Shown one piece after another: positions 24,613 through 29,071 of a DNA stretch of 64,000 nucleotides. Origin of the DNA: Candidatus Nanopelagicus abundans (GTDB taxonomy: Bacteria; Actinomycetota; Actinomycetes; Nanopelagicales; Nanopelagicaceae); NCBI RefSeq assembly GCF_002288305.1, contig NZ_CP016779.1, positions 186,001 to 250,000 of the forward strand, written 5' to 3'. Every line of letters begins with the position of its first letter. Positions within the stretch are counted from its first letter, which is position 1. The notes beneath the pieces are model-generated. The model saw nothing but the letters and a program-made list of their open reading frames with translations, searched no databases and had not been told where the DNA came from. The translations under genes were made by a program, and so were the position numbers.

Positions 24613-26166
24613 ATGCTGGATGTTAAGTCAAAGTTTAAACATTCATTAAGTTTTAAGGTATTGGTAACAAGCACTTTGCTGGCTATTCTAATAATTTCAA
24701 CAGTTGGTTTTGTGATTCATAATCGAATTTCATCAATAATAATAAATGAAAAAATATCAATATCTAAAATTGAAACTAAGAATGCGCTACAGCTAGCACA
24801 AACAAGATTCAATAGTGCTAATTTAAAAAGTGATGAAAGTTTGAGTAAAGCAATTCAGCAATTCATTGCGTCTAGTGAGGAAGATGGTCTAATTTCTGGG
24901 CGTGAAACTATTCTTTTGCCCTTATCTAAGGATAATAAAGTATCGAATATCTATCAAACAGGTACAACTTTACTAGTTTTAAATTCAATTCCAAATAATT
25001 TTAGAGAAAAAACAAAAGCAAGTAAAGAAATTATAGTTGAAAGAACATCTGTTAAGTATTCTACTGGAATTAGTTTTCCTGGTTTTATAATTGGTAGTAA
25101 AATTAACATTCCAAAAACCGGCGTTTATGAAATATATTATATTTTCAAACTCGATAAACAGTTTCAAACCATTAATCAGCTAGAAGTCATTTTGATTTTT
25201 GGAGGGGTTTTATTGATATTGTTAATCGGTCTAAGTACACAATTTGTGATCCGCCAAGTAATCTCACCAGTTCAAGCTGCAGCATCTGTTGCTGAAAAAT
25301 TCACACAAGGTGATCTATCTAGTCGAATGAAAATTTCAGATAGTACTGAATTTGCAAGTTTAGGTAATTCATTTAATGAAATGGCAGTATCGATTCAGCA
25401 GCAAATTTATCGGCTTGAGAACCTATCAATGCTTCAGCAAAGATTCGTCTCTGACGTTTCCCATGAACTACGAACGCCATTAACAACTTTAAGAATGGCA
25501 GCTGAAGTTATTTATCAAGGAAAAGATAATTTTGATCCTAGTATTGCAAGAAGTAGTGAGTTGCTAATTAATCAAATTGATCGATTTGAGCTACTACTCT
25601 CTGACTTACTAGAAGTGAGTAGGTTTGATGCTGAAGCAGCATCTATTGATATAACCACATTTAATATTGTTAACTTAGTGAAGAAAACAGTTGATTACCT
25701 TCACCCAAGCAAAGCCACAAAATTAATTATTGATTCACTAAGCGAATCGATTCCTATCCAGGCTGATCAAAGAAGAATTGAACGTATTCTCCGCAATCTC
25801 ATTTCAAATGCTTTAGATCATAGTGAAGGCAAGAATGTAAAAGTTCGTATCGCAGAAAGTGATAATGAAGTAGCGGTAAGCGTTCGCGATTTTGGATTAG
25901 GTTTTAATGAAGAGGATGCACCTTTCTTATTTGATCGTTTTTGGCGAGCAGATCCATCTAGAGCTAGAACAAGTGGCGGAAGTGGACTTGGTCTTTCAAT
26001 TGCCCTTGAAGATACAAAACTGCATCAAGGTCAATTGCTTGCTTGGGGTAGCCCGCACCAAGGTGCTCACTTTGTGTTAACACTGCCAAAAAATCACGGC
26101 ACGTTAGTTCAATCATTTCCTATTGCATTAATACCAGAGGATAAATTATCTACAGTAGAAGAATAA
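24613..26166 (+). CDS. mtrB: Sensor histidine kinase MtrB
   Basis: 517 residues: a first membrane helix (~14-34), an extracytoplasmic sensor of ~150 residues, a second helix (~190-210), HAMP, then the HisKA domain with VSDVSHELRTPLTTLRMA (phospho-His) and an ATPase domain with NLISNALDH, VRDFGLGF and GGSGLGLSIA. It is the partner of MtrA. In larger relatives lpqB, encoding a lipoprotein that modulates MtrB, follows directly; here the downstream sequence is only a comF fragment, so the LpqB input appears lost at this locus. Confidence 0.93.
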   Translation: MLDVKSKFKHSLSFKVLVTSTLLAILIISTVGFVIHNRISSIIINEKISISKIETKNALQLAQTRFNSANLKSDESLSKAIQQFIASSEEDGLISGRETILLPLSKDNKVSNIYQTGTTLLVLNSIPNNFREKTKASKEIIVERTSVKYSTGISFPGFIIGSKINIPKTGVYEIYYIFKLDKQFQTINQLEVILIFGGVLLILLIGLSTQFVIRQVISPVQAAASVAEKFTQGDLSSRMKISDSTEFASLGNSFNEMAVSIQQQIYRLENLSMLQQRFVSDVSHELRTPLTTLRMAAEVIYQGKDNFDPSIARSSELLINQIDRFELLLSDLLEVSRFDAEAASIDITTFNIVNLVKKTVDYLHPSKATKLIIDSLSESIPIQADQRRIERILRNLISNALDHSEGKNVKVRIAESDNEVAVSVRDFGLGFNEEDAPFLFDRFWRADPSRARTSGGSGLGLSIALEDTKLHQGQLLAWGSPHQGAHFVLTLPKNHGTLVQSFPIALIPEDKLSTVEE

Positions 26167-26179
26167 TTGCGATACTTAA

Positions 26180-26359
26180 GTAGAAATTGGCAATAAATTA
26201 ACAAGATTCATTAAATTCCCAGGATGGATCTTTCCAATCGATGATCAGATTACTACCGGAGCATCAATTTGGGGGGTAAGGGCGTTGGCTGAAGCCAAAA
26301 TCACCGTTAATGGGATAATTACTGCGTGTGCGGTGGGGCGTAATTCTCTAATACGATAA
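26180..26359 (+). pseudogene. comF: C-terminal remnant of a ComF-type phosphoribosyltransferase
   Basis: A 59-codon open frame with no usable start codon. It translates to a ComF-like C-terminus: GWIFPIDDQITTGASIWGVR contains the PRPP-binding DDxxTTGA motif, followed by LAEAKITVNGIITACAV, matching the last helix and strand of the family. The upstream ~150 residues of a normal ComF are missing, because mtrB ends at 26166 and an in-frame stop lies just before 26180. In mycobacteria the order is mtrB-lpqB-Rv3243c-comF-hpf-secA1, so this fragment sits exactly where comF is expected. Confidence 0.75.
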
Positions 26360-26410
26360 GCCACTCAGTATTTAGTCAATTCAAAAATTAGACACCAGTG
26401 GAGGCGCCTT

Positions 26411-29071
26411 GTGGGTTTATTAGACAAAATCTTGCGTGCTGGTGAAGGACGAGCTATTAAAGAGCTTGCAAAAATTTCAGTACAAGTTAATAAATTCGAA
26501 CAAGAAGTTTCATCCTTAGATGATCAATCACTACGTGCTAAAACAGATAGTTTTAAAGAGCGTGTTAGTAAAGGTGAAACTTTAGATTCAATTTTGCCGG
26601 AAGTTTTTGCTGTTGTAAGAGAAGCTGCAAGACGCACGTTAGGACAACGTCATTACGATGTTCAGTTAATGGGTGGCGCCGCACTTCATAAAGGAAATAT
26701 TGCAGAGATGAAAACTGGTGAAGGAAAAACTTTAGTTTCAACATTACCAGCATATTTAAATGCTCTTACTGGTAAAGGTGTTCATATAGTTACCGTAAAT
26801 GATTATTTAGCAGAGCGTGATAGTGAATGGATGGGACGTGTTCATCGCTTTTTAGGTCTTAAAGTTGGAGTGATTCTTGCAAGCATGTCACCGGCTGAGC
26901 GACGAGAGGCATATGCAGCTGATATCACCTACGGAACAAATAATGAGTTTGGCTTTGATTATTTAAGAGACAACATGTCATGGTCATTGGCTGATTGTGT
27001 TCAAAGATCACATAATTTTGCAATTGTTGATGAGGTTGACTCGATTTTAATCGATGAGGCAAGAACACCTTTAATCATTTCTGGACCAGCTGATAAAGCA
27101 ACTAAATGGTATGTCGAATTTGCAAATATTGTTGCAAGACTAAACCGAGATATTCATTATGAAGTAGATGAGAAAAAGCGAACAGTTGGTATTTTAGATG
27201 AGGGAGTTAGTAGGGTTGAAGAAGCGCTAGATATAAATAATTTATATGAATCAGCTAATACTCCAATGATTGGGTATTTAAACAATGCGATTAAGGCCAA
27301 AGAGTTGTTTAAACGAGATAAAGATTATGTAGTAATGAATGGTGAATTATTAATTGTTGATGAGCACACCGGTCGAATGTTGTCAGGGCGGCGATATAGC
27401 GAAGGACTTCACCAATCCCTTGAGGCAAAAGAACGTATTGAGATTCAGGATGAAAATCAGACCCTAGCCACAATTACTCTACAAAATTACTTCCGCCTCT
27501 ATAAAAAGCTAAGCGGTATGACAGGTACGGCTATGACAGAGGCCTCTGAATTTATGCAGATTTATAAACTAGGTGTGATTCCAATTCCAACTAATAAAAA
27601 AATGCAACGTATTGATCAATCTGATTTAATTTATAAATCTGAAGTAGGTAAATTTACTGCTGTAGCTGAAGATATTGCTGCACGACATAAAAAAGGCCAG
27701 CCCGTATTAGTCGGAACAGTTAGCGTTGAAAAATCTGAGGAGCTATCGGCAATTCTAAAACGCCGTGGTATCGCCCATGAAGTATTAAATGCTAAGCAAC
27801 ATGAACGTGAAGCTGCAATTATTGCAAGAGCTGGAACAGTTAGCGCTGTAACTGTTGCAACTAATATGGCAGGCCGTGGTACTGACATTATGCTGGGTGG
27901 AAATCCTGAATTTATGGCTGATTTTGAATTACAACGCCAAGGATTAAATCCTGTAGAAACTCCAGAAGATTATGAAAAAGCTTGGCCTGCTGAAATCACT
28001 AAGCAAAAAGAATCAGTTGCAAAAGAACACGAAACGGTAGTTTCACTAGGTGGACTTTATGTTTTAGGAACAGAGCGCCATGAATCTAGGAGAATTGATA
28101 ATCAGTTAAGAGGTAGATCTGGTCGCCAAGGAGATCCTGGTGAGTCAAGATTTTATTTATCATTACAAGATGAACTAATGCGCAGATTTAACTCTGGATT
28201 AGTTGAGCGATTCTTAGGAGCAGCTGGCATGCCGGAGGAGACTCCACTGGAATCAAAAATTGTTAGTAATGCAATTAAATCCGCACAGACTCAGGTTGAA
28301 TCACTAAACTTTGAAATGCGCAAGAATGTTTTAAAGTATGACGATGTAATGAATAAACAGCGTGAAGTTGTTTACTCAGAGCGCCGTGAAGTACTTGAAG
28401 GCGCTGATATTAAAGACTTAGTGCGTAAATTTTTAGACGAAACTGTCACCGCCTACGTTGACGCTGCGACTGCTTCTGGTGTGGCTGAAGATTGGGATCT
28501 AGAAACTCTATGGGTAGCTCTAAAGGGATTATTTCCGATCTCATTCACTGTAGAAGAGTTGTTAAATGAAATCGGTGGAGCCTCATCTTTAGATAGTGAA
28601 TTCTTACTTGACCGGATCTTAACTGAGGCAAATTTGGCTTATGAAAAGCGAGAGAGTGAACTTTCTTCAGCAGTAATGCGAGAGCTTGAGCGAAAGATAT
28701 TACTATCGGTATTAGATCGAAAATGGCGAGAGCATCTTTATGAAATGGATTACCTACAAGAAGGAATTGGTTTACGCGCTATGGCGCAGCGAGATCCACT
28801 TGTTGAGTACCAGCGAGAAGGATTTGATTTATTCTCAGCAATGATGGACGCAATTAAAGAAGAGTTAGTTAGTTACTTATTTCATGCGGAGGTACAAGTT
28901 GAAGGTGATCAAGTTGGTGCTAAGGGACTTACCCCAACACCAGCACCAGTTACTCAACTTCAATATTCAGCTGCTGAAATTGAATCTACACCAGCAGGTG
29001 GAACTTCTAAAAACGCACCTTGTCCATGTGGTTCTGGTAAAAAATATAAAAGGTGTCACGGACAGGCTTAA
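26411..29071 (+). CDS. secA: Preprotein translocase ATPase SecA
   Basis: An 886-residue motor of the Sec pathway. [20 protein letters not shown] is Walker [21 protein letters not shown] the DEAD-like box, [14 protein letters not shown] and [15 protein letters not shown] the second helicase domain, and the C-terminal [15 protein letters not shown] the zinc-binding SEC-C motif. The GTG start follows a gtggaggcg Shine-Dalgarno. The ~240-base upstream region holds the comF remnant rather than a dedicated leader gene. Confidence 0.97.

Follow-up and report, generated by a model that had tools for sequence, protein, structure and literature searches.

The closest described counterpart of the genes discussed here is the Flp/Tad and ComEA/ComEC system of the Actinobacteria, as known from Micrococcus luteus, where tad and comEA/EC are required for transformation (PMC4322843). 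ComF (ComFC; TIGR00201) is a protein of natural transformation with a zinc finger and a phosphoribosyltransferase (PRT) domain, and in Helicobacter pylori ComFC works at the ComEC step (PMC9005727). Congeners of Candidatus Nanopelagicus abundans (G004, G013, and G024) encode the Tad ATPase, comEA, comEC, comF, and dprA, whereas N. abundans keeps only dprA intact, together with stubs of comEC and comF. We consider it highly probable that a deletion reduced comF to a 3' stub, that the uptake route was lost, and that the tail of the stub was kept, probably as the promoter of secA.

N. abundans is a very abundant lake bacterium, and mtrB and secA, between which the stub lies, are genes of the essential type. 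A whole-genome search placed the window (the entire 64,000-nucleotide stretch analyzed) at G000:C1:186001-250000, where G000 denotes a one-contig genome of 1,161,863 bases. This genome, strain MMS-IIB-91 (GCF_002288305.1), is the reference genome in Table 1 of PMC11283720, and it is the one genome through which the species was examined. The records of the congeners are those of acI actinobacteria. The mtrB-secA interval spans 248 bp in N. abundans versus approximately 760-775 bp in relatives. Feature coordinates are collected in Table 1.

Table 1. Features of the mtrB-secA interval and of the comEC site in N. abundans. Coordinates are window positions unless a contig is named.
Feature	Coordinates	Strand	Evidence or remarks
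mtrB sensor kinase, intact	24613..26166	+	Open reading frame; matches in 60/60 relatives searched; stop immediately 5' of the stub
Deletion junction zone	26167..26198	+	~0.52 kb missing versus G024, equal to the mtrB-comF spacer plus ~165 comF codons
comF remnant, original frame (QDSLNSQDG)	26199..26227	+	Stop before; 1-nt deletion at end
comF remnant, last ~44 codons	26228..26359	+	Altered PRPP loop DDQITTGAS; 3-nt deletion at 26270; original stop
DNA-level conserved element, probable secA promoter	26294..26366	+	GCCAAAAT, GCGTGTGC, TTCTCTAATACGATAAGCC; TACGAT at 26352-26357, inferred -10 candidate of the predicted secA promoter
secA	26411..29071	+	Open reading frame; GTG start; GGAGG-type ribosome site; orthologue alignments
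comEC 3' stub, last ~18-20 codons	G000:C1:756677-756754 (L110:7678-7754)	reverse	Kept 5' of holA; contains CTAATAAGATC

We located mtrB in the 60 nearest genomes and read the interval to secA where contigs allowed. The interval was uninterrupted in 20 congeners, and in each of them it comprised a single gene, an intact comF of 223-248 codons, and the order mtrB-comF-secA was also identified in nine other genera of the family, with comF of 213-238 codons. ComF is near-universal: among 161 family genomes scanned, 99 of the 100 that are near-complete yielded a match (a few of them weak), and every other single-contig genome among those listed yielded a strong one. Intact ComF of congeners is under purifying selection (dN/dS of approximately 0.08-0.26, several times that of MtrB). 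One public MAG contig titled Bifidobacterium breve (CALPKA020000010.1; L080) encodes an MtrB 68% identical to that of the window, and its record name looks wrong.

The frame at 26180-26359 is open over 59 codons and translates as VEIGNKLTRFIKFPGWIFPIDDQITTGASIWGVRALAEAKITVNGIITACAVGRNSLIR, and no ATG, GTG, or TTG start was detected in it upstream of the PRPP motif. The initial annotation had read this spacer as a startless ComF C-terminus carrying DDQITTGAS, and comparison of the interval among relatives, a check that it had proposed, upholds this: besides the intact comF at this site in 20/20 readable congeners, residues 180-223 of a full-length congener ComF used as query match G000:C1:212228-212356 (E = 4.7e-13, 84% identity). 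Homology to relatives begins near the mtrB stop, spans the comF stop, and continues into secA. A second proposed check, a profile search of the 59-residue translation, returned no match in Pfam and only a weak PyrE match in NCBIfam, although the intact orthologue at the same site in G024 matches TIGR00201 comF (E = 1.9e-18). Because profiles alone fail on the 59-mer, its identification is carried by synteny and by the relatives. Assignment of the entire 59-residue translation to ComF stands only for 26228-26359. The stub is built from two ancestral frames, with 26202-26227 homologous to relatives in another frame (QDSLNSQDG versus NSLNSQTG in G024) and the ComF frame of the window beginning after a 1-nt deletion near 26226. 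Judged from these frames, the first ~16 residues lie outside the ComF frame and are not ComF. The homology in the second frame places the extent of the stub at approximately 26199-26359, possibly from 26167. By sequence, the six remaining PRTases are Hpt, PyrR, Prs, Apt, Upp, and PyrE, and no second comF was found in the genome; comF was therefore not relocated.

The stub shares with the ComF/ComFC family its place, its frame (26228-26359), and a C-terminal sequence with the PRPP loop. In contrast to that family, it carries indels and has no open frame with a start codon; the N-terminal four-cysteine zinc finger, present in intact congeners, is deleted, and DDQITTGAS keeps the core letters of the loop (DDxxTTG) in altered form while nothing else of the PRT domain remains. 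Given homology at the orthologous site, together with truncation and frame disruption relative to intact relatives, it is near certain that what the spacer holds is a comF pseudogene reduced to a 3' stub.

A deletion of approximately 0.52 kb fused the region of the mtrB stop to comF at codon ~165-170; in the junction zone, the alignment with G024 is weak yet above shuffles (5 of 500 equal it). The remaining comF then gathered indels and missense changes. States private to the N. abundans stub comprise an additional base at position 26205, the 1-nt deletion, T to C at 26235 and at 26239, T to A at 26247, the 3-nt deletion at 26270, and A to G at 26271. Those at 26235, 26247, and 26271 affect sites that are invariant in 20/20 relatives, and the change at 26247 replaces L with Q in the PRPP loop (DDLITTGAS in relatives). 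With the deletion, the indels, and the missense changes combined, ComF protein cannot be made. The spacer is thus the noncoding footprint of genome reduction that had been proposed for it. Like pseudogene stubs of other streamlined bacterial genomes, it is deletion-derived, 3', and situated between intact neighbors, with private indels, and taken just as a pseudogene it is ordinary. It differs from such stubs in the retention of its tail as DNA, apparently for control of the gene that follows.

The initial annotation also listed lpqB, the N-terminal part of comF, and hpf as gone from the interval. All are missing, but lpqB and hpf were not lost with comF. LpqB (Germane domain) was matched in a single one (G026) of 37 family genomes, and there unlinked to the locus; HPF had no match in 25/25 genus genomes and elsewhere in the family was never found in the mtrB-secA interval. 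All readable Nanopelagicaceae loci have the order mtrB-comF-secA without lpqB and hpf, and the outgroup G040 has lpqB and comF within a 2.9-kb interval. The losses of lpqB and hpf are far older than the truncation of comF and unrelated to it.

Private changes to the stub comprise seven events (nine alignment columns) in 26196-26290 (95 nt) versus none in 26291-26365 (75 nt). In the genus alignment, synonymous codons are frozen across the last ~28 comF codons (GCG TGT in 19-20 of 20; AAT, TCT, CTA, and ATA in 100%). Excess codon fixation is 0.62 in these codons and 0.12 in the rest of comF (P = 1.5e-5), and blocks of invariant columns comprise GCCAAAAT, GCGTGTGC, and TCTCTAATACNATAAG. In G010 the comF stop is shifted, yet TCTCTAATAAGAT persists. 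On the evidence of these alignments, the 3' ~75 nt of the stub is under purifying selection as DNA, not as protein. Purifying selection along with a conserved start had been named as what would speak against a remnant; the selection is present in that 3' part at the DNA level, and there is no conserved start. We lean toward the interpretation that the tail was kept to control secA from upstream, most likely as its promoter. Conservation and position are the grounds for the promoter, since a plain sigma-70 scan detected none at threshold. A probable secA promoter in the tail would account for which part of comF survived, and such an element would fix the right-hand limit of tolerated deletions.

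The clear decay 5' of position 26290 could also be expected if the stub were neutral debris awaiting removal. We consider this unlikely given the absence of private changes from the 75-nt tail, the genus-wide freezing of synonymous sites, and a nearly identical stub that followed an independent deletion in G006. In the latter genome (G006:C52; L052), a 100-N spacer lies between contig ends with an exact 55-nt overlap. If the N run is taken as a placeholder and that overlap is counted once, the interval measures 286 bp, and the spacer upstream of comF runs straight into comF codon ~165; this junction itself falls within one contig. G016, the sister of G006, has an intact comF. The truncation in G006 thus appears independent of that in N. 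abundans while leaving nearly the same stub. An assembly branch at G006:C52 might also mean a polymorphic deletion.

Less probable still is that the conserved tail, which was retained ~45-120 nt 5' of secA, is an RNA leader (a 5' UTR regulator) of that gene rather than its promoter. No covarying RNA fold was detected in the tail, where the consensus fold reaches only -1.9 kcal/mol without a compensatory pair, and the spacer has no match in Rfam. We regard as very improbable that the remnant is translated from a non-standard start and retained as a small PRPP-loop protein. A 59-codon open frame and a conserved tail would fit such a protein, but the frame is pieced from two ancestral frames, no ATG, GTG, or TTG precedes the motif, and an invariant site of the PRPP loop carries a mutation; moreover, the frozen synonymous sites and the persistence of the conserved part beyond the frame in G010 point to DNA. 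Equally improbable is an otherwise intact comF broken by an assembly or sequencing error, as a single genome of the species might allow, given that the genome is complete in one contig (PMC11283720) and that, besides the 0.5-kb gap, it has the 1-nt and 3-nt deletions, substitutions at invariant sites, and no other comF.

The preferred reading, a comF stub with a tail kept probably as the secA promoter, extends to other genes of DNA uptake. That a DNA-uptake-linked gene was lost at this locus, as annotated, is correct but incomplete, in that ComEA, ComEC, and the Tad ATPase are also gone from the complete genome. We found no candidate ComEC (PF03772) in it, whereas most congeners, the complete genomes G004 and G013 among them, have ComEC; in ComEC-bearing congeners, comEA and comEC adjoin holA. 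In N. abundans, hflX and holA are only 78 bp apart and the comEA-comEC site has been cleanly excised, leaving in the gap the final comEC codons (SPNKIRVTGKEWWRIKWG), which overlap the holA start. The same comEC tail was kept after deletion of comEC in G005 and G001, and the limit to deletion proposed at secA seems also to have applied to comEC 5' of holA. CTAATAAGATC of the comEC stub resembles CTAATACGAT of the comF tail. The excision in G000 and G005 also removed a neighboring operon (L110/L111 versus L089-L091) that congeners carry, with FAD oxidoreductase, dihydrodipicolinate synthase-like, and proline racemase-like genes.

The Tad/T2SS ATPase (PF00437; T2SSE/TadA) is likewise absent from N. 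abundans, and the tad site beside argG is empty in G005, G011, and, cleanly so, G000. Where tad genes were lost in G016 (L121:5325-6515), there is a 396-codon frame of unknown kind. DprA is retained in N. abundans (a 293-codon frame at G000:C1:718557-719174). Without ComEA, the ComEC channel, and the ATPase of the Tad/Flp pilus, the known actinobacterial uptake route cannot operate in this strain. Loss of the whole known route from the N. abundans genome, in this one strain, is thus well supported. ComF may have become dispensable with the uptake route or may have gone alongside it.

No fixed order of comF and comEC loss is evident, because comF is truncated in G006, which has kept the genes for ComEC and the Tad ATPase, but intact in G001, which has lost comEA and comEC, and in G011, where comEC is down to a 65-codon stub and tad is missing. 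The comEC status of G008, G015, and G017 was left out because of contig ends or missing flanks, and a loss of ComEC in G003 was not counted because an open ComEC C-terminus there is cut off by the end of its contig. G005 was set aside for ordering the losses, since its 3.9-kb comF contig is 76-86% identical to G000 and its other contigs 92%; this mtrB-comF-secA contig (G005:C91; L038/L077; JAQCGQ010000096.1) is probably misbinned, or else a recombined segment. Relaxed selection on comF in lineages without comEC was likewise rejected, as pairwise dN/dS for G011-G003 (0.22) and G023-G001 (0.18) fell within the 0.08-0.26 of other pairs.

In metagenomes, linkage in N. abundans decays fast and levels off at approximately 100 bp (PMC11283720), which sits oddly with a strain without ComEC, the Tad ATPase, and ComF. 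A wider reading, which we offer tentatively and hold to be doubtful, is that N. abundans, without a known uptake route, would recombine by other means, and that the ends of the com genes it has lost persist solely in the role of secA and holA promoters; embedded promoters of this kind would set the ends of deletions in streamlined genomes.

Collectively, our findings suggest that the odd spacer is a piece of a larger event, in which an abundant freshwater bacterium gave up natural transformation, which is a main source of recombination and which its near relatives retain. The genus spans several stages of this loss, so that the order of losses, relaxed selection, and effects on recombination can be tested comparatively. 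The frozen tails suggest a rule, namely that what survives deletion in packed genomes is the region controlling the gene downstream. Loss of a pathway and deletions bounded by promoters raise the interest of the comF stub moderately above that of a plain pseudogene.
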